Shown here: in pieces, positions 13,903-41,801 of the stretch
Layout: each line of letters starts with the position of its first letter
How positions within the stretch are numbered: the stretch's first letter is position 1
NCBI GenBank assembly: GCA_903896015.1
Contig: CAITWF010000072.1
Span: 62,001-126,000 of the forward strand
Length of the DNA: 64,000 nucleotides
Source: an uncultured Opitutia bacterium
GTDB taxonomy: Bacteria; Verrucomicrobiota; Verrucomicrobiia; Opitutales; Opitutaceae
Reading direction: 5' to 3'
Notes under the pieces: model-generated
What the model was told of the DNA's origin: nothing
The model's input: the letters and a program-made list of their open reading frames with translations, nothing else
The model's database searches: none
Position numbers and translations under genes: made by a program

Positions 13903-14055
13903 GGGTAAGTGGGCATCGCTCCCACTCGCCGCTTGAAAAAAAATCGCCGTCCGGGAATATGCCGCGGCCTAGTTGCTCTCACTCCCGACATCAGCAATGT
14001 GGGCCAGTTGCCCGCGCCTGACATCGTCCAACCCAAAAAACATACCGCTATCGTC

Positions 14056-14346
14056 ATGAATAAATCCACGCGTCTCCTCATCACTTCCGCCGCCATCGCC
14101 GGTCTCTACGCCGGTTCGCTCGCGAGCAAAGCCTTCGCGCAAGCCGACAGCAAAGCGGGCACGGAAGAAAAAGCCAAAGCCGACAAGGGTAAACACGACT
14201 GCAAGGGCAAGAACACCTGCAAGGGTGAGGGTGGCTGCGGCGCCGGCGACAACGGCTGCAAGGGTAAGAACTCCTGCAAGGGCAAGGGTGGCTGCAGCAC
14301 CGCGATGAAGGACGACAAGAAGGCCGACACGAAGAAATCGGGCTGA
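14056..14346 (+). CDS. bufferin-type (BufA2-like) secreted metallophore precursor, Cys/Lys/Gly-rich
   Basis: 96 residues. ATG 14056 gives a clean Sec signal peptide, MNKSTRLLITSAAIAGLYAG followed by SLASKAFA, with cleavage expected near residue 28-30. The mature part is hydrophilic and holds six Cys at 49, 55, 61, 68, 74 and 80. Two copies of C-K-G-K-N-(T/S)-C-K-G-(E/K)-G-G-C are joined by GAGDNG. It is followed by DUF692, DUF2063 and DoxX-like genes, the known bufferin gene order. Family knowledge: in bufferins the DUF692 enzyme modifies Cys residues, and the periplasmic peptide binds copper. I place it nearest BufA2-type precursors from memory. No Shine-Dalgarno sequence is evident. An intrinsic terminator follows immediately. 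Confidence 0.85.
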   Translation: MNKSTRLLITSAAIAGLYAGSLASKAFAQADSKAGTEEKAKADKGKHDCKGKNTCKGEGGCGAGDNGCKGKNSCKGKGGCSTAMKDDKKADTKKSG

Positions 14347-14360
14347 TTATTTCTTACACC

Positions 14361-14394
14361 ACGCGGCCGGCGTCTAACGCCGGCCGCGTTTTTT
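14361..14394 (+). terminator. intrinsic terminator/attenuator between precursor and maturase genes
   Basis: Perfect 12-bp GC-rich stem ACGCGGCCGGCG (14361-14372) with CGCCGGCCGCGT (14378-14389), 5-base loop TCTAA, and a run of six T at 14389-14394. It begins 14 bases after the precursor stop and ends 16 bases before the DUF692 ATG. It should end most transcripts after the precursor and let a minority read into the enzyme genes, giving excess precursor over enzyme. Confidence 0.9.
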
Positions 14395-14410
14395 GTTTGG
14401 GAGGAAAAAT

Positions 14411-15286
14411 ATGCCGGCGAACCGTTTCAACGCCTTCACTGACTACGGCATAGGCCTCGGCCTGCGCGTCCCGCACTACGCGCACATCCTCGAAAAAAAG
14501 CCGACGTGCGACTGGTTCGAGATCATCTCGGAAAATTTCATGGTCGACGGTGGCCGGCCGCTCCACGTGCTCGATCAAATTCTTGAGCAATATCGCGTCG
14601 TGCAGCACGGCGTCTCGATGTATTTCGGCTCGGCCGACAAACCTGACCGCACACACTTGCGGAAATTGAAGTCGCTCGTGAAGCGCACGAAGACGCCGTG
14701 GCTGAGCGACCACTTGTGCTGGGGCTCGGTCGACGGCACCTACACGCACGACTTGCTGCCGATGCCCTATACGTTTGCGGCGGCGAAGCGCACTGCGGAA
14801 AAAATCCGCTACGTCCGCGACTTCCTCGAGGTGCCGATCTGCGTGGAGAACGTGTCGAGCTACGCCGAGTTTCACCAGAGCGAGATGACCGAGTGGGAAT
14901 TCCTGAGCGAGGTCGTCGAGCGCGCCGACTGCGGAATCCTCCTCGACGTAAACAACATCTACGTCTCCTCGAAGAACCATGAGTTTAACCCCTACGACTA
15001 CCTGAACGGGGTGCCGCACGATCGTGTCGGCCAGATCCACGTCGCGGGCCACACGAAATTTGAGAAATACATCCTCGATACGCACGATCATCCTGTGCTC
15101 GATCCGGTCTGGAAGCTCTACGCGCACGCCATCCAGAAGGCGGGCGTGACGGCGACGCTGCTCGAGTGGGACGACAAGATTCCGTCGTTCGACGAAGTCC
15201 ACGACGAGGCGATGAAAGCCAACCGGTTTATCGCCGGAGCACGCGAAGCTCAGTCGCCGAAGAAACGCGCGGTCGCGAAAGCATGA
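14411..15286 (+). CDS. bufB: DUF692 multinuclear non-haem iron oxidase (MNIO), bufferin maturase
   Basis: 291 residues. The ATG at 14411 is preceded by a strong ribosome site GGGAGGA (14399-14405, 5-base spacing); the upstream TTG at 14393 lies in the terminator tail and is rejected. The TIM-barrel DUF692 pattern is clear: GIGLGLRVPHY, WFEIISENFM, QHGVSMYFGS, WLSDHLCWG, VCVENVSSY-like, LLDVNNIYVSSKNHEFNP, QIHVAGHTK, DTHDHPV and LLEWDD. These hold the His, Asp and Glu iron ligands of the family. Expected role: oxidative modification of precursor Cys residues in the cytoplasm before export. Its stop overlaps the next start by 4 bases. Confidence 0.93.
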   Translation: MPANRFNAFTDYGIGLGLRVPHYAHILEKKPTCDWFEIISENFMVDGGRPLHVLDQILEQYRVVQHGVSMYFGSADKPDRTHLRKLKSLVKRTKTPWLSDHLCWGSVDGTYTHDLLPMPYTFAAAKRTAEKIRYVRDFLEVPICVENVSSYAEFHQSEMTEWEFLSEVVERADCGILLDVNNIYVSSKNHEFNPYDYLNGVPHDRVGQIHVAGHTKFEKYILDTHDHPVLDPVWKLYAHAIQKAGVTATLLEWDDKIPSFDEVHDEAMKANRFIAGAREAQSPKKRAVAKA

Positions 15287-16203
15287 CGCCCGTTGGTCTC
15301 AAGGCGCCGCCGCGCCACGCACCGAAACGCCTCGCGACCGAGGCTGATCTCCGCGCGCTCCAGCGGATGATGTTGCGCGCGCTCGTGGAGCCGCTCACCG
15401 ATGACGACGATCTCGCGCCGCGTTGGCACGACGGCCGGCCGATGGCGGAGGTCGCCGCCGAGTTCATCAAGCCGAACGATCGGCTCTCGTCCGTCGATCG
15501 CCTGCAGATTTACGCGCGCTGCTACTGGTATCGGCTGATCGATTGTGTTTACGACGACACGCCCGGACTGCGGGCGATGCTCGGCGAGAAGAAATTCTCC
15601 GCGCTCGTCCGCGCCTACCTCGCGAAATATCCGTCGCGTTCGTTCACGCTGCGCAACCTCTCGTCGCGGCTCGCGCAGTTCATCCGCGAGGAGCCGCGCT
15701 GGACGAAGCCTGATACCGCGCTGGCGCACGCCATCGCGTGCTTCGAGTGGGCGCAGACGGTGGCGTTTGACGGCGAAGCGCGGCCGGTGCTCACGCCGGA
15801 CGATCTGGCCGACGCGCCGCCGGCGAAGCTGCGGCTCGCCTTGCAGCCGTATCTCACGCTCTTTGCGCTCGACTGGCCGGTCGACGATTACGTGATCGCG
15901 GTGAAGCAGCGGGAGACGCTCCGTAGTGAAGCCAGCAACGTGATCGAGCGCGGGCCGCGTGCGGTGTCGCGCAAAGTGGTGCCCCGGCCGCGGCGGAAGA
16001 AAACCTTCATCGTCGTCCACCGCTACAACCTGAAGCTCTACTACAAGCGCATCGAAGCGCCGGCTTTCAAGATTCTTACCGCGCTCGCGGCGGGCCGCAC
16101 GCTCGCTGACTCCGTTGAGGCCGCGGGCCGCAACGCGAAACCGGAGCAGGTGCGCGAGTGGTTCGCGACGTGGATGGAACTCGGCTGGTTCTGCAAGCCG
16201 TAG
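15283..16203 (+). CDS. bufC: DUF2063 (HvfC/BufC-type) RiPP partner protein
   Basis: 306 residues, ATG 15283 overlapping the DUF692 stop (ATGA). The N-terminal DUF2063 domain (about 25-130) is recognisable by LQRMMLRALVEP, DRLQIYARCYWYRLIDCVYDDTPGLRAMLG and YLAKYPSRSFTLRNLSSRLAQFI. A middle segment WAQTVAFDGEARPVLT follows. The C-terminal part (about 240-306) reads FIVVHRYNLKLYYKRIEAPAFKILTALAAG, like the PqqD/RRE-related end seen in BufC/HvfC proteins. Family knowledge: it binds the precursor and delivers it to the MNIO enzyme. It has an unusually basic linker, RKVVPRPRRKK. Confidence 0.9.
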   Translation: MTPVGLKAPPRHAPKRLATEADLRALQRMMLRALVEPLTDDDDLAPRWHDGRPMAEVAAEFIKPNDRLSSVDRLQIYARCYWYRLIDCVYDDTPGLRAMLGEKKFSALVRAYLAKYPSRSFTLRNLSSRLAQFIREEPRWTKPDTALAHAIACFEWAQTVAFDGEARPVLTPDDLADAPPAKLRLALQPYLTLFALDWPVDDYVIAVKQRETLRSEASNVIERGPRAVSRKVVPRPRRKKTFIVVHRYNLKLYYKRIEAPAFKILTALAAGRTLADSVEAAGRNAKPEQVREWFATWMELGWFCKP

Positions 16204-16290
16204 GGAGGGCTTTCCGAGTCCTCCGCACCTCGAAAGCGTCCTGACCAAGTTTGCCGGAAATAAAATCCGGCCTTGCGGCTCACATACCCC

Positions 16291-16758
16291 ATGAACCTCT
16301 CTTCCGCTTACTCCAAAATCGACGACTTGGTCACTACGCTCGGTGGCTGGCTGCAACCGCTCCTGCTCCTCCTCATCCGCGGTTGGTGGGGCTGGTCGTT
16401 TTTTCTGACGGGCAAGGGCAAGCTCACGCACCTCGAGAAAACGACTGCGTTCTTCACTGAGCTCAACCTGCCGCTGCCAAAGCTCAACGCGATCATGGCG
16501 GGATCGACGGAATGCTTCGGCGGCCTGTTGCTGCTCCTCGGGCTCGGCTCGCGGCTCGTAAGCGTGCCGCTGATCTTCACGATGATCGTCGCCTATGCGA
16601 CGGCGGACAAGGAGGCGCTTCAGTCGATTTTCTCCGACACCGACAAGTTTACGGGCGCGACGCCGTTTCTGTTTCTCCTCGCCTGCGTGATCGTGTTCGC
16701 GTTTGGGCCGGGGAAAATCTCGCTCGACGCGCTTCTGTTCAAGAAATCGGCGAAGTGA
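16291..16758 (+). CDS. DoxX-like membrane protein of the bufferin operon
   Basis: 155 residues, ATG 16291, 87 bases after the DUF2063 gene. Four hydrophobic segments are visible: around 27-45 (LQPLLLLLIRGWWGWSFF), 72-90 (STECFGGLLLLLGLGSRLV), 93-108 (SVPLIFTMIVAYATAD) and 128-148 (FLFLLACVIVFAFG). Conserved DoxX features include the RGWWGWSFFLTGKGKL stretch and the Glu in AGSTECFGGLLLL. In Caulobacter-type bufferin operons a DoxX-like protein is the usual fourth member, possibly supplying redox equivalents at the membrane; that role is inference. A strong terminator follows. Confidence 0.88.
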   Translation: MNLSSAYSKIDDLVTTLGGWLQPLLLLLIRGWWGWSFFLTGKGKLTHLEKTTAFFTELNLPLPKLNAIMAGSTECFGGLLLLLGLGSRLVSVPLIFTMIVAYATADKEALQSIFSDTDKFTGATPFLFLLACVIVFAFGPGKISLDALLFKKSAK

Positions 16759-16768
16759 TCCACAATCG

Positions 16769-16800
16769 CGCGCCGCTCAAAAGAGTGGCGCGTTGTTTTT
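16769..16800 (+). terminator. intrinsic terminator of the bufferin operon, inside the last codons of the convergent gene
   Basis: Ten-base-pair stem with one G-U pair: 16769-16778 (CGCGCCGCTC) with 16783-16792 (GAGTGGCGCG), loop AAAA, then TTGTTTTT. It starts 10 bases after the DoxX stop. Its right arm overlaps the last codons of the convergent TIR-TPR gene, which ends at 16777 and encodes NNAPLF. Confidence 0.8.
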
Positions 16801-19095
16801 AGGATCCCTCAGCAGCGCCTCGAAGCGCGGATCGCTGCGCAACGGTTTCCATGACCCCGCGGAGATACCTCCGTCCAATACCGCGTTCGTGCCATAGGAT
16901 GTGTGAAGTAGTCGCTCAAACTCCGCCAACGCACGCTCTTTTTCGCCGGCGTAGGCGAGTCCGGAGGCGCACATGGCGGAATTCTGGCAGCCGATAATCT
17001 TGTCGCGTGTCTCCGGCAGCAGTTCCCGCGCGTTGTCGGTGCAGCGCAACGCCTCGTCGCGATCGCCCAGCAGGCCGTGCGCAAACGCGAGGGTCGCCCA
17101 GAGCTGGGCGTTCTGCGGCTGGCGGATGAGTTCCTTTTCGCCCAGTGCCACGACTTCCGCAGCGCGGGCTTTGGCCGCCTCCCTCTGGCCGGCCTCGGCC
17201 AGCGTGGCGGCGGCGAACACGTCTTGCGTCCAGCGCGGCGAGTCGTCGTCCTCGTCGAAATAACGCTGCTCCCGGTCGAGCCGGATGGCTTCGGCCCAGT
17301 CGCCGAGAGCGCGCGCGTTACCCAGCGCGAGGTAGCGCTGCAACGGCTGATCCGCGGCCGGAACCTTGCGAGTAGCGAACTCGCGGATCGCGTTGGTTGA
17401 GCCGTGGGCGGCGTAGAGGGTCTGGGCGAGCGTGGCCTCCACAACGAGATTGCCGGGGTGGGAAGCGAGGAACTGCCGCGCCGCCGCCTCGCTCTCCGCG
17501 TAGCGGCGAACGCTGAAGAGCGTTTGGATGAATTCCACCCCGACTTGCAGCACCTGCGGGTCGAGTTGCACGCTGCGGCGCAGGTTGTCCACGCACTCCG
17601 GCAGCCGGCCCTGGCGTCGCAGAATGAAGGCGAGCGAGGAAAAGACCGTGGCGTCGTTCGGGCGCACAAGCGCGAGCCGTTGGTATTGCTCGGTGGCGCG
17701 CGGATAATCGCGATAGCCGTAGTAATAATAGTCACCCAGCCCTTCGATGGTTGCGGGATCGTCGGGAGCGAGCGCGGTGGCGTGATCGATCGCGGTCTTC
17801 GCCTGCGCGAGCTGCTCAGGCGTCGTCTCGTGTTTGAAGTAGGCGTAGGCTTGGCGCGAGGCGAGATCAGCCCAGGCGGCCGAGAAATTCGGATCGAGCG
17901 TCACGGCACGCTGGAGCAACTCGATTTCTGGATGGGGATCTGTGAACTTGGCGTCGTAGCGCAGCGCGCGGGCGCGCAGCAGCGCATCGTAGGCGGCGGG
18001 ATTTTCGGTGGGTCGGCGCTCGAGCAGCGCCTTGGTCGCGGGCGAGAGGACCGCTTGCAGTGCGCCGGCGATCGCCTTCGAGAGCTCGGCCTGGATCGCA
18101 AATACATCGGAAAGATCGCGGTCGTAATTGTTGGCCCAGACGTGTTCGTCGGTCGCGGCGCGGATGAGCTGGCCGGTCACGCGGACTTTGTTGCCGGCGC
18201 GGCGCACGCTGCCTTCGAGGATGTAGGCAACCTTCAGCTCGCGTGCGATTTCGCCGATCGATTTGGTGGTGTTGCGATACTGCATCACTGAGGTGCGCGA
18301 GACGACGTGCAGGTCCCGGACGAAGGCCAGATTGGTCAGTAAATCCTCATGCACGCCGTCGGCGAAAAAGGCGTTGGCGTCCTTGTCCTCGCTCAGGTTT
18401 TGGAATGGGAGCACAGCGATGGATTTGTCGCTGATGTCCGCTGCAGGCTTGGTTCCAGCAGGCGCATGCGCGCCGGCCGGTGCGGGCGTTTCCTTGGTGC
18501 CCGGCCGCAGCACGATGAACGCGGCGAGCGTCAGCACGGCGACACCGAGGGTTGCGACCAACGCCACAGGGAAAGGCGATTTGGCAGTTGACGCCGGTGT
18601 GGACACGGCGGCGGGAGCATGCCGCATCGGCATCGGCGGCGCCGTGACGCCGGGCGCGGAGGTGGCGGTGAGTAGTCGCTTGAATTGCTCGACGAACTGC
18701 GGCGTGGGCAGCGCGCCGGGGAGGCGCGTCCACTGCACGCGCAGAAATTCCGCGGGCACGACAGCGCCGTTTTCGCGGGTGTCGTCGATCGCGACCGGAG
18801 CGACGAAGGGCACGCCCTCGGCGAGCAGATGCGTTTGCTCGACCGCGAGTTTCCATTCGAGGCGGAAATAGCCCTTCGTGCGCGCCTCGGTGTTTTTTGA
18901 GACGAGCGGGACGAACAGCGTGCAGTCGTTGATCTGCTTGCGGATCTTGGCATCCCATGCGTCGCCGCCGCGGAGTTCGTTTTCGTCGAACCACACTTCG
19001 AGGCCGTGGCTGCGCAAGGCCTCCGCGATGCGGCGCGCGGCGGGCGCGTCTTCGTGCGCGTAACTGAGAAAGATGGCTTTGCCGGCGTCGCTCAT
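16777..19095 (-). CDS. TIR - transmembrane - TolB-like - TPR protein (copy 1)
   Basis: 772 residues, ATG 19095. Domain order: TIR domain at 5-140 (KAIFLSYAHEDAPAARRIAEA, GLEVWFDENELRGGD, and YFRLEWKLAVE with Glu80 as the likely catalytic glutamate of NADase-type TIRs); Pro/Ala linker; one TM helix about 175-197; TolB/FlgO-like domain about 224-350 (KSIAVLPFQNLSEDKDANAFFADG, DLLTNLAFVRDLHVVSRTSVMQYR, YILEGSVRRAGNKVRVTGQLI); then TPR-like helices to about 740. The TIR should be cytoplasmic and the rest periplasmic. It is a tandem paralogue of the next gene upstream, with a 3-base gap. A signalling or defence role is possible but unproven. Confidence 0.88.
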   Translation of the reverse strand: MSDAGKAIFLSYAHEDAPAARRIAEALRSHGLEVWFDENELRGGDAWDAKIRKQINDCTLFVPLVSKNTEARTKGYFRLEWKLAVEQTHLLAEGVPFVAPVAIDDTRENGAVVPAEFLRVQWTRLPGALPTPQFVEQFKRLLTATSAPGVTAPPMPMRHAPAAVSTPASTAKSPFPVALVATLGVAVLTLAAFIVLRPGTKETPAPAGAHAPAGTKPAADISDKSIAVLPFQNLSEDKDANAFFADGVHEDLLTNLAFVRDLHVVSRTSVMQYRNTTKSIGEIARELKVAYILEGSVRRAGNKVRVTGQLIRAATDEHVWANNYDRDLSDVFAIQAELSKAIAGALQAVLSPATKALLERRPTENPAAYDALLRARALRYDAKFTDPHPEIELLQRAVTLDPNFSAAWADLASRQAYAYFKHETTPEQLAQAKTAIDHATALAPDDPATIEGLGDYYYYGYRDYPRATEQYQRLALVRPNDATVFSSLAFILRRQGRLPECVDNLRRSVQLDPQVLQVGVEFIQTLFSVRRYAESEAAARQFLASHPGNLVVEATLAQTLYAAHGSTNAIREFATRKVPAADQPLQRYLALGNARALGDWAEAIRLDREQRYFDEDDDSPRWTQDVFAAATLAEAGQREAAKARAAEVVALGEKELIRQPQNAQLWATLAFAHGLLGDRDEALRCTDNARELLPETRDKIIGCQNSAMCASGLAYAGEKERALAEFERLLHTSYGTNAVLDGGISAGSWKPLRSDPRFEALLRDPKNNAPLF

Positions 19096-38932: not shown

Positions 38933-40057
38933 ATGAAACGCACCGCCCTCACGCCGCGCCGCGATTGGCGCGAAAAATCCGAGGCCTTTGGCTTCACTTA
39001 TCATACCCACGAGCGCGGGCCGTATTGGGATGAGAGCGCATGCTACGAATTTTCCGCGCGCGAAATCGACGAACTCGAGGCGGCGGGCAACACGCTTCAC
39101 CAGCTCTGCATCGATGCCGCGCAAGTCGCGATCGATCGCGGCTGGTGGGCGCGGCTCGGCATTCCCGAAAAAGCCGTGCCGACGATTCTCGCTTCGTGGG
39201 ACCGCGACGACCCGAGCCTCTATGGTCGCTTCGATCTCGCCTACGACGGCCGCACACCGCCGAAGCTTCTCGAATACAACGCCGATACGCCGACCACCTT
39301 GATCGAGGCGGCGGTCGCGCAATGGTATTGGCTGCAGGAACGTTTTCCCGGCGGCGATCAGTTCAATTCGATCCACGAGCGGCTGATCGAAGCGTGGCGG
39401 CACGTCGCGGCGGCCCGCGTGCATTTTTCCGCGGTGAGCGATCTGCCTGAGGACACGCAGACGATCGCCTATTTGATGGACACGTGCCAGCAGGCCGGCT
39501 TCGACACGCGGTGGATCGCGATCGACGACGTCGGCTGGGATCGCGCGCGGGGTGTGTTTGTTGATGCAGAGGCCGCGGAAATTAACGCACTCTTCAAGCT
39601 CTACCCGTGGGAATGGATGTGGCACGAGCCGTTTGCGGAGTTTCTGCCCGCGAGCAAAAATCTTTTCATCGAGCCGCCGTGGAAATTTTTGCTGAGCAAC
39701 AAAGGCCTCCTGCCGATCCTGTGGGAACTCAATCCCGGCCACCCGAATTTGCTGCCCGCGTTTGAAACGCCGGATGCTTCGCTCGGTGGCAGCTTCGCGA
39801 AGAAGCCGCGGCTGAGTCGCGAGGGCGCCAATATCACGCTCGTCGAACGCGGTGCGACCGTGGAAGCAAACGGCGGCGACTACGGCGAGGAAGGCTTTAT
39901 CTTCCAAGCGTTCGCGCCGAGCCCGGAGTTCGAGGGGAACAGGCCGGTTTGTGGCGTGTGGATTGTGAATCACGAGGCGTGCGGCCTCGGCATCCGCGAG
40001 GACACGCGCCGCATCACCGGCAATCTCAGCCGGTTCGTGCCACACCGGATGAACTGA
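38933..40057 (+). CDS. glutathionylspermidine-synthase-like ATP-grasp protein (YgiC/YjfC type)
   Basis: 374 residues, ATG 38933, 12 bases after the previous stop. Residues 1-370 match the synthetase half of glutathionylspermidine synthase: WREKSEAFGFTYHTHERGPYWDESACYEF, LLEYNADTPTTLIEAAVAQWYW, LFIEPPWKFLLSNKGLLPILWELNPGHPNLLPAF, KPRLSREGANI, and the ending GVWIVNHEACGLGIREDTRRIT. ATP-grasp enzymes of this group join a carboxylate to an amine. E. coli YgiC/YjfC do not make glutathionylspermidine as far as known, so the real product is open. Its last 32 bases overlap the convergent MsrQ gene tail to tail. Confidence 0.92.
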   Translation: MKRTALTPRRDWREKSEAFGFTYHTHERGPYWDESACYEFSAREIDELEAAGNTLHQLCIDAAQVAIDRGWWARLGIPEKAVPTILASWDRDDPSLYGRFDLAYDGRTPPKLLEYNADTPTTLIEAAVAQWYWLQERFPGGDQFNSIHERLIEAWRHVAAARVHFSAVSDLPEDTQTIAYLMDTCQQAGFDTRWIAIDDVGWDRARGVFVDAEAAEINALFKLYPWEWMWHEPFAEFLPASKNLFIEPPWKFLLSNKGLLPILWELNPGHPNLLPAFETPDASLGGSFAKKPRLSREGANITLVERGATVEANGGDYGEEGFIFQAFAPSPEFEGNRPVCGVWIVNHEACGLGIREDTRRITGNLSRFVPHRMN

Positions 40058-40691
40058 TGGCGCCGCGCGACTGCTTCCATTGCTTCCCGACCCGCGCGAT
40101 TTCCAGCAGAGCGAGCGGGACGAAAATCCAGAGCACCTGCACGGGGAAAATTTTTCGCGCGATGGCCTGATGATACGCGGCGAGGCCAGCAGCGACGTAG
40201 GCGAGCCGGTGCAGATTTTTCCAATTTTTCCCTCCGAGCCAGCGGACGAATGCGTGCAGACTCGTGATCGCGAGCACGAGCAGGATCGCGAGCGCGATGA
40301 GGCCGACGAGCTGGAACGGCTTTTTCGTCGCGGTCCGTAGCACGCCTCCCACGGCGGAAAGATCGCCGGCCGTTTCATAGACGAGGTGTGTCGTGAAATG
40401 CAGTGCGGCGTAGACAAAGGACGCCACGCCGACGAGGCGGCGGTGGCGGTTGAGCGCCTGCGCGATGCCCCATTTGGGCCAGAGCACGCGGAGCGGAGTA
40501 AAGGTGAGCGTCGTCGCCAGCAGCACGCACGCGACGAAGCCGAGGTGGTGCAGGACGTATTTGAGCGGATCGGCGAGCACGCTCTGATTGTGCGAGACAT
40601 AGATCGGCCACAGCGGCCAGAGGCCGGGCAACGCGAGCAGCGTCCAGGCGACGGGCTTCGAGCGGAGAAGTTTTTCGACGAGGGCGGTCAC
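40026..40691 (-). CDS. msrQ: MsrQ haem b membrane subunit of periplasmic methionine sulfoxide reductase
   Basis: 221 residues, GTG 40691. Six TM segments with conserved features: LHHLGFVACVLLATTLTFTPLR, NRHRRLVGVASFVYAALHFTTHLVYE, KNWKNLHRLAYVAAGLAAYHQ. The His residues in these helices (HHLG, LHFTTHL, LHRL) fit haem b ligands. MsrQ takes electrons from the quinone pool and passes them to MsrP. It follows msrP on the minus strand with a 91-base gap. The last 32 bases overlap the convergent glutathionylspermidine-synthase-like gene. Length is typical of the family. Confidence 0.95.
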   Translation of the reverse strand: MTALVEKLLRSKPVAWTLLALPGLWPLWPIYVSHNQSVLADPLKYVLHHLGFVACVLLATTLTFTPLRVLWPKWGIAQALNRHRRLVGVASFVYAALHFTTHLVYETAGDLSAVGGVLRTATKKPFQLVGLIALAILLVLAITSLHAFVRWLGGKNWKNLHRLAYVAAGLAAYHQAIARKIFPVQVLWIFVPLALLEIARVGKQWKQSRGAISSSGVARTG

Positions 40692-40782: not shown

Positions 40783-41745
40783 TCAATAATTCTTCTCGAG
40801 ATCGAGGCCCTTGTAGAGCGCGGCGACCTGCTTCTCGTAGCCGTTGAACATGAGAGTGCGCTGGCGCGAGCCGAACACGCCGCCACCGCCGCCGATCACG
40901 CGCTCGCTTGCCTGCGACCAGCGCGGATGATCGACGAGCGGGTTCACGTTGGCGTAGAAGCCATACTCGCTGGCGGCCATCTGCTGCCAGGTGTTGCGCG
41001 GCGCTTTCGCGACGAGTTCGAGCTTCACGATCGATTTGATGTTTTTGAAACCGTATTTCCACGGAACGACGAGGCGCAGCGGTGCGCCGTTTTGATTGGG
41101 GATCGGCTTGCCGTAGATGCCGGTCGCGATGAACGCCAGTTCGTGCATCGCCTCGTCGAGGCGCAGGCCTTCGATGTAGGGGTAGTCGAGGTTGCCGTCC
41201 GCCTGACCAGGCGCGCTTTTGCGATCGAGGAAGGTGGTGAACTTAACGAATTTTGCGTCGGCCTTGGGGCTGGCGAGGGCGATGAGTTTCGAGAGTTGAA
41301 AGCCGTCCCACGGAATCACCATCGACCACGCCTCGACGCATCGGAAACGGTAGACGCGCTGCTCGATGCCGCCGACTTTCGCGACGAGTTCGTTGACGTC
41401 GAGCTTGAGCGGCGTGTCGACGAGTCCAGTGACCTCGACGGTCCACGGATCGGTCTTCCAGCCGCGGTTGGCGAGTTCGGCGGGCTCGGACTTGTCGGTG
41501 CCGAACTCGTAGAAATTATTGTAGTGGGTGATTGCCTCGTAGGGCGTGGGCTTGAGAGCGGGGTCGCGGAAGGCGGGGTTATTCGTGGTTGGAAATCCCG
41601 CGGTCGCGGCGAACAGGTCACGGGCGGCGAACGCGGCTCCGGCGAACCCGAGCGTTTTCAGGAACGTGCGGCGGTTTTGGTAGATCGTTTCAGGCGTCGT
41701 GGCGGACTCGCGGAGTTCCCAATCTTTCGGCGTGCGGATCAACAT
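40783..41745 (-). CDS. msrP: MsrP molybdopterin-dependent periplasmic methionine sulfoxide reductase
   Basis: 320 residues, ATG 41745. Twin-arginine motif NRRTFLKTLGFAG (24-36), so folded export with the molybdenum cofactor. The family signatures are TTNNPAFRDPALKPTP, THYNNFYEF, RFRCVEAWSMVIPWDGF with Cys136 as the Mo ligand, and LRLVVPWKYGFKNIKSIVKLEL. It repairs oxidised methionines on envelope proteins using electrons from MsrQ. The gene lies between a TonB receptor upstream (57-base gap) and msrQ downstream, on the same strand. Start choice fits the Tat signal. Confidence 0.96.
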   Translation of the reverse strand: MLIRTPKDWELRESATTPETIYQNRRTFLKTLGFAGAAFAARDLFAATAGFPTTNNPAFRDPALKPTPYEAITHYNNFYEFGTDKSEPAELANRGWKTDPWTVEVTGLVDTPLKLDVNELVAKVGGIEQRVYRFRCVEAWSMVIPWDGFQLSKLIALASPKADAKFVKFTTFLDRKSAPGQADGNLDYPYIEGLRLDEAMHELAFIATGIYGKPIPNQNGAPLRLVVPWKYGFKNIKSIVKLELVAKAPRNTWQQMAASEYGFYANVNPLVDHPRWSQASERVIGGGGGVFGSRQRTLMFNGYEKQVAALYKGLDLEKNY

Positions 41746-41801
41746 GGTGGTGGGTGTCGAGGTGAGAGACTCGGACGCCAGAATTATTCCGTGTCCTTGG
41801 C

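Follow-up and report, generated by a model that had tools for sequence, protein, structure and literature searches.

The described systems closest to the one presented here are the bufferins, encoded in operons with a precursor (bufA), an MNIO (DUF692) maturase (bufB) and a partner (bufC). In Buf1 a disulphide links the first and last cysteines, and it is the central cysteines that carry the modification (PMC12452194). Buf2 belongs to the Cys-Lys captophorins (BufA2B2C2), and according to Gadgil et al. Cys-Lys MNIOs carry an aspartate (BufB2-Asp251) where FonB has F250; FonB-D249 is the catalytic base (PMC12668002). In Caulobacter, SigF controls a DoxX-bearing bufferin operon, a second DUF692 operon and MsrPQ; copper, chromate and cadmium induce this set, and mutation of sigF makes the cells copper-sensitive (PMC3511200, PMC8224329). 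Antoine et al. report sigma genes in Buf1 clusters and none found in Buf2 clusters (PMC12452194). Here we describe a four-gene operon (Table 1) in a 64,000-nucleotide stretch of DNA, below called the window (contig CAITWF010000072.1, positions 62,001 to 126,000), from an Opitutaceae genome with an assembly size of 4.96 Mb. We consider it quite probable that this is a Cys-Lys (Buf2-like) bufferin operon which in Opitutales is an effector of an extracytoplasmic function (ECF) sigma envelope-stress regulon.

The Opitutaceae operon and its relatives

The four genes very probably make a chemically modified, metal-binding secreted peptide; its modification, its copper binding and the regulation of the operon are inferred from sequence. 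An earlier sequence-only reading had proposed a bufferin-type operon in a probable verrucomicrobium, with four plus-strand genes, a 4-base coupling of the two enzyme genes and terminators after the first and the last gene, and all of this was recovered. The order is bufA, bufB (MNIO), bufC (DUF2063) and doxX, the bufC ATG overlaps the bufB stop codon (ATGA), GGGAGG stands upstream of bufB, and terminator-like hairpins follow bufA and doxX. By MNIO, the closest named relatives of the host are Opitutae/Opitutus metagenome-assembled genomes (MAGs), with 89-90% MNIO identity. The profile search suggested by the same reading matched PF05114, PF09836 and PF07681, with the MNIO, DUF2063 and DoxX proteins all above the Pfam cut-offs. 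The genome holds one MNIO and one such precursor; no second credible precursor or MNIO and no DUF2282/Buf1 precursor were found in it.

BufB scores 347.8 bits against NF050167, above the NCBI cut-off of 310, and it matches PF05114 (E 5e-107) and 3BWW (E 4e-45); against HvfB it stays below the cut-off (250 vs 360). The motifs HG, SDH, EN, LDVNN, HVAGH, DTH and E-x-D align with 3BWW, and the key residues, including the iron-ligand-type motifs and Asp254, are invariant in 81 MNIO sequences. At the position of Asp255, 76 of the 81 have Asp, as do four out of five proteobacterial Buf2 MNIOs, and the one Buf1 MNIO compared has Gly. The pair D254-D255 has the arrangement that distinguishes Cys-Lys captophorins, an Asp adjoining the catalytic Asp (PMC12668002); Asp254 agrees with FonB-D249, the catalytic base, and Asp255 with the Cys-Lys Asp. 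The EN and DTH motifs are likely the counterparts of the residues mutated in HvfB (N175, D242, H244; PMC13419390).

For BufC, the match to PF09836 is above the cut-off (E 6e-14), and a sequence search of the PDB gave no match. Its AlphaFold2 model has a predicted local distance difference test (pLDDT) score of 92.4, and the top Foldseek matches are TglI (8hci_A, E 3e-6) and 3dee (NGO1945, E 5e-6). By domain and predicted fold BufC is a PME-type 1 partner, i.e. DUF2063 plus the fold of a RiPP recognition element (RRE). The DoxX protein matches PF07681 (E 5e-20) and obtains 70 bits on NF050144, below the cut-off of 80.

The precursor contains HDCKGKNTCKGEGGCGAGDNGCKGKNSCKGKGGCST, the two C-K-G-K-N-(T/S)-C-K-G-x-G-G-C units that had been noticed before. 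All 51 aligned precursors, five proteobacterial references included, match the BufA2 equivalog model NF050166 at E <=0.001. The Cys gaps of BufA are 6,6,7,6,6, a spacing that 63 of the 75 distinct precursors show, and over the whole precursor set 346 gaps are exactly 6 and 64 are 7. Some Opitutales precursors are enlarged to 8-14 Cys: L085 (4521-4847) and L107 (4496-4834), which share one supported clade with L077, have nine Cys each in unbroken (CKGKDG) arrays, and L051 (4632-4937), like these two, has an uninterrupted Cys-hexapeptide array with the canonical six-Cys pattern lost.

By eye, the N-terminus of BufA has a basic n-region, a hydrophobic core and a site between SKAFA and QA, conserved in 72 precursors, and an AA-x-x-G-L-x-x-G motif is nearly invariant in the signal region. 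The mean pairwise identity of this region (28 residues) in the Opitutales clade is 0.72, compared with 0.21 for the following 15-residue linker; for OmpH of the same family it is 0.37 in the signal peptides and 0.48 in the mature part. The signal region is thus far better conserved than the linker or the OmpH signal peptides, as expected for a leader. HvfA without its signal sequence is poorly modified (PMC13419390), and the same role of the signal peptide is reported for a bufferin (Junger 2026, as cited in PMC13419390). A BufA signal peptide doubling as leader fits both reports.

To follow the operon in other bacterial genomes, the MNIO was used as query, which gave 80 named loci, mostly from Opitutales and also from other Verrucomicrobiota, Acidobacteriota and Planctomycetota. 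Most of these loci come from MAGs. They were selected by MNIO identity, so that the figures describe close kin, without intermediates to Proteobacteria; loci L002-L027 were excluded from the counts. The sequence-only reading would have been refuted by related genomes in which no homologue of the precursor gene stands next to DUF692, yet a homologous, Cys-rich and signal-bearing precursor precedes the MNIO in 73 out of 74 loci for which 500 bp or more of upstream sequence exist. In locus L104, 1.5 kb lie upstream of the MNIO and no precursor is recognisable there. A DUF2063 gene follows the MNIO in 71/71 loci, and DoxX is present in 61 of these 71. Mean pairwise identity in loci L031-L110 is 0.80 for the MNIO and 0.51 for both BufC and DoxX.

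The bufferin subfamily is found in Verrucomicrobiota, Acidobacteriota and Planctomycetota. In the MNIO tree the last two form one group each inside the sampled clade; as the sampling was by close MNIO identity, this tree shows neither a direction of horizontal spread between phyla nor the size of the gap to Proteobacteria. Locus L084 lies on a contig labelled Betaproteobacteria and its MNIO groups with a Verrucomicrobia MNIO (99% support), a contig that is probably mislabelled or misbinned. PF05114 matches occur in 29 of 100 genomes of the host family (28 above the cut-off). Among 289 Verrucomicrobiota genomes, BufB is above the cut-off in 25 and BufA2 in none, therefore the current NCBI precursor model does not name the Verrucomicrobiota group.

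The hairpin between bufA and bufB was found in 46 of 76 relatives compared with 4.5% of shuffles, and its pattern has only two sites in the host genome. Since the hairpin alignment was built from hairpin-bearing loci, it does not count towards conservation. We infer that the hairpin probably makes the precursor more abundant than the enzyme. A scan for sigma-70 promoters found none.

Predicted ECF promoter and regulon

The promoter and the regulon predicted from it are the newest part of the findings and were absent from the sequence-only reading. The element upstream of bufA looks like an ECF-sigma promoter. GGAATA-N16-CTC occurs in the bufA upstream regions of 36 of 72 relatives, compared with 0.05 expected from shuffles, and an A three bases past CTC, outside the searched pattern, is invariant in the relatives' promoters. 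Among the Opitutales, 42 of 45 loci contain GGAATA, and it almost always stands 91-113 nt upstream of the bufA ATG.

A search of the host genome with the relaxed consensus GGAATA-N16/17-YTCYYAY gives four sites, and with the reversed control pattern none. They precede bufA, msrPQ, a signal-bearing MsrA gene and a signal-bearing AhpC/TSA peroxiredoxin gene. In eight relatives there are 23 sites compared with three for the control. Of the 23, 14 stand in front of buf, msr or secreted redoxin genes (bufA 5, msrPQ 3, secreted msrA 2, secreted msrB 1, peroxiredoxin/redoxin 3). Two further sites precede genes for spondin-domain PEP-CTERM proteins, one lies before an ECF sigma/anti-sigma operon and one before an RpoD-like gene; the last five stand before unrelated genes or none. 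That bufA shares its predicted promoter with genes for the repair of oxidised envelope proteins points to a single, coordinated defence against copper or against oxidants.

An orthologue of the ECF sigma factor was found in all 12 genomes examined. GGAATAA or GGAATAG lies 38-51 nt upstream of the sigma start in 9 of 14 sigma copies, the host genome included, where the sigma/anti-sigma pair (L194, 1498-2804; G000:C26) has a GGAATAA-N-CTCTGA motif 42 nt upstream of the start. Four of the copies that lack the motif (in G024, G034, G049 and G004) lie directly downstream of a buf operon, and the fifth is interrupted by a contig end. In a same-genus genome the order bufABC-doxX-sigma-antisigma-peroxiredoxin occurs twice (L031, L032). 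Two Cys in the C-terminal part of the anti-sigma are invariant (13/13) and make a candidate sensor. The host anti-sigma has no Pfam match, so it is not NrsF/DUF1109.

Table 1. Positions in the window of the operon, the predicted promoters and regulon members, and two adjoining genes.
Feature	Position	Strand	Details
ECF-type bufA promoter	13954..13982	+	-35 GGAATA (13954-13959), N16, -10-like CTCTCAC (13976-13982)
bufA-like precursor	14056..14346	+	96 aa, 6 Cys, signal-type N-terminus; NF050166 match
Terminator-like hairpin bufA/bufB	14361..14389	+	13 pairs then T-run
bufB, MNIO (DUF692) maturase	14411..15286	+	NF050167, PF05114, 3BWW match
bufC, PME-type 1 partner (predicted; DUF2063 + RRE fold)	15283..16203	+	PF09836, AlphaFold2, Foldseek
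doxX (HvfX-like) membrane protein	16291..16758	+	PF07681, NF050144
Terminator-like hairpin after doxX	16768..16793	+	11 pairs
TIR-TPR protein gene	16777..19095	-	772 aa
Glutathionylspermidine-synthase-like ATP-grasp gene	38933..40057		
msrQ-like haem membrane subunit, behind msrP, predicted regulon member	40026..40691	-	NF003831 93 bits, cut-off 130; PF01794 above cut-off
msrP, periplasmic methionine-sulfoxide reductase catalytic subunit, predicted regulon member	40783..41745	-	NF003767 442 bits, cut-off 207
Second promoter site, same consensus	41762..41790	-	GGAATAATTCTGGCGTCCGAGTCTCTCAC; G000:C72:103762-103790; 17 nt upstream of msrP ATG

Within the window, the msrPQ promoter lies 27 kb from bufA. 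MsrP is Tat-type, a TonB-dependent receptor gene is located directly upstream of msrP-msrQ, and the ATP-grasp gene adjoins msrQ. Among the relatives, spondin-domain or PEP-CTERM proteins stand behind the same promoter at L176 (1610-2542) and L183 (577-1404), one of them divergent from an ECF sigma operon. The TIR-TPR gene, convergent with doxX, has a signalling- or defence-type look and is unrelated to the operon.

Proposed working and alternatives

In the proposed working, stress would act on the two-Cys anti-sigma and free the sigma factor, which would start bufA from the GGAATA/CTC promoter. The hairpin after bufA would give much precursor, and read-through less enzyme. BufC, through its RRE, would hold the precursor by the signal peptide, and BufB, as an iron MNIO, would oxidise the Cys in the C-K-G motifs, with 5-thiooxazoles as the most likely product. 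Once exported to the periplasm by Sec, the peptide would bind a soft metal there, probably copper, and the co-regulated MsrPQ, MsrA and peroxiredoxin would repair or prevent periplasmic oxidation.

Several points weigh against the reading as a Buf2-like operon under an ECF sigma factor. BufA obtains 40.2 bits (E 3e-10) on NF050166, below the cut-off of 60, and five proteobacterial BufA2 precursors from plasmid records score 88-106 bits. Cys 1-5 are in register with BufA2, but Cys 6 is at +6 and not at +13: the spacing in the five proteobacterial precursors is 6,6,7,6,13, with the last Cys 13 residues past Cys 5. The search against bufferin families that had been suggested thus gave homology to BufA2, and strict BufA2 membership is unsupported because neither the cut-off nor the Cys spacing is reached; working as a bufferin is well supported. 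By analogy with Buf1, the precursor subfamily would be without the Cys clamp and may expose more Cys for modification. There is no copper gene within the buf cluster. GGAATA is found in none of the six Acidobacteriota loci, so the regulation is not universal. The consensus was taken from bufA regions and then relaxed before the genome searches, and recognition of the promoter by the ECF sigma is suggested by their co-occurrence.

The predicted co-regulation with msrPQ, secreted msrA/msrB and peroxiredoxin would also suit a peptide that is mainly a sacrificial trap for hypochlorite or other reactive chlorine or oxygen species, its Cys being oxidised instead of envelope proteins, as proposed for the Met-rich MrpX/BcrX peptides; ECF systems that are linked to hypochlorite and include Msr genes are known from Brucella (BcrS) and Haemophilus (RpoE2) (PMC8315932, PMC7907618). 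However, we regard this as unlikely, as the conserved C-K-G motifs around the Cys, together with a matching enzyme that has the Cys-Lys Asp, point to modification, the characterised relatives bind copper (PMC12452194, PMC12668002), and Caulobacter SigF, with nearly the same effectors, responds to copper (PMC8224329).

Neither an uptake receptor nor an exporter is present in the operon, the MNIO is far closer to BufB than to the methanobactin maturase MbnB (348 vs 37 bits), apart from its signal-type N-terminus the precursor has no leader, and the predicted regulon is protective. All this makes a methanobactin-like metallophore for copper acquisition, or a peptide for another metal (silver, gold, cadmium, mercury), distinctly unlikely, even if MbnB is of the same MNIO superfamily (TIGR04159, E 3e-9), gold induces the gig operons and fusions of MerC with bufferins are known (PMC12452194). 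It seems very improbable that the precursor is an unmodified, metallothionein-like secreted peptide and that the MNIO pair modifies something else. The Cys/Lys/Gly-rich composition and the AlphaFold2 prediction (mean pLDDT 53, no confident fold) would agree with such a peptide, but the linkage of precursor and MNIO in nearly all relatives, the leader-like conservation of the signal region, and the single MNIO and single precursor in the genome speak against it.

The Cys-Lys bufferin reading extends the thiooxazole-type bufferins to a precursor subfamily of Verrucomicrobiota, Acidobacteriota and Planctomycetota that the current NCBI model leaves unnamed, with a displaced sixth Cys and a six-residue Cys rhythm able to expand into arrays. 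The predicted promoter ties bufferins to envelope methionine repair outside Proteobacteria and raises the question of whether the peptide is a copper buffer, an oxidant trap, or both. We give about an even chance to the more specific proposal, that an Opitutales ECF sigma/anti-sigma pair (GGAATA/CTC promoter, Cys pair), distinct from SigF/NrsF, switches on a hexad-rhythm bufferin with displaced Cys 6 together with MsrPQ, MsrA/B and peroxiredoxin. If true, the pairing of bufferin and methionine repair was reached by different regulators, which would place bufferins in a general envelope defence against redox and metal stress.

Comparison with described systems

In the broad sense the Opitutaceae system is very probably a bufferin, with homology to the Buf2 model, a BufB-type MNIO, a DUF2063 partner with predicted RRE fold, and the order bufA-bufB-bufC with doxX. 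The view of it as a poorly described system did not survive, as this kind of bufferin is already known (PMC12452194, PMC12668002), and verrucomicrobial Buf2 may already figure in the taxonomic charts of the bufferin papers. The gene order is, as had been noted, that of the Caulobacter-type and HvfABC systems; the precursor has its kinship with the Cys-Lys Buf2 and not with Caulobacter Buf1 or HvfA.

According to the part of PMC8692599 available to us, clusters of Antarctic UBA7966 (Gammaproteobacteria) likewise combine a short six-Cys precursor with DUF692 and DUF2063; they belong to another phylum, and that part describes no verrucomicrobial DUF692 precursor family or regulon. The Haemophilus hvf operon (oxazolin) shares MNIO, HvfC and DoxX, and RpoE2 there controls msrAB and a DoxX cluster (PMC7907618), but the HvfA precursor has EGKCG (Lys-Cys) motifs and the Opitutaceae MNIO is under the HvfB cut-off.

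In the Caulobacter SigF regulon (Buf1 CC3254-3257, CC2907-2905, MsrPQ) an ECF sigma also links bufferin operons with msrPQ. The promoter differs, (T/C)GTAAC-N17-CGAA in the ECF16 consensus (PMC8315932) compared with GGAATA-N16/17-YTCYYAY here, as does the anti-sigma, NrsF there and a protein without Pfam match here, and MsrA/MsrB and peroxiredoxin are added here. By promoter and anti-sigma the Opitutaceae system thus falls outside SigF/ECF16.

The closest system is Buf2/BufA2, with the bufABC(-doxX) order, a putative Sec-type signal, C-K-G motifs, the first five Cys 6,6,7,6 apart, an MNIO above the BufB cut-off and Asp at the Cys-Lys position in common. Besides the position of Cys 6 and the lower model score, the Opitutaceae precursor differs from the proteobacterial ones in having C-K-G at Cys 1 instead of C-Y-G or C-S-G. 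In the sampled tree its MNIO falls into a separate clade, some relatives carry hexad arrays, and in some relatives sigma genes adjoin the operon, which Antoine et al. did not find for Buf2.

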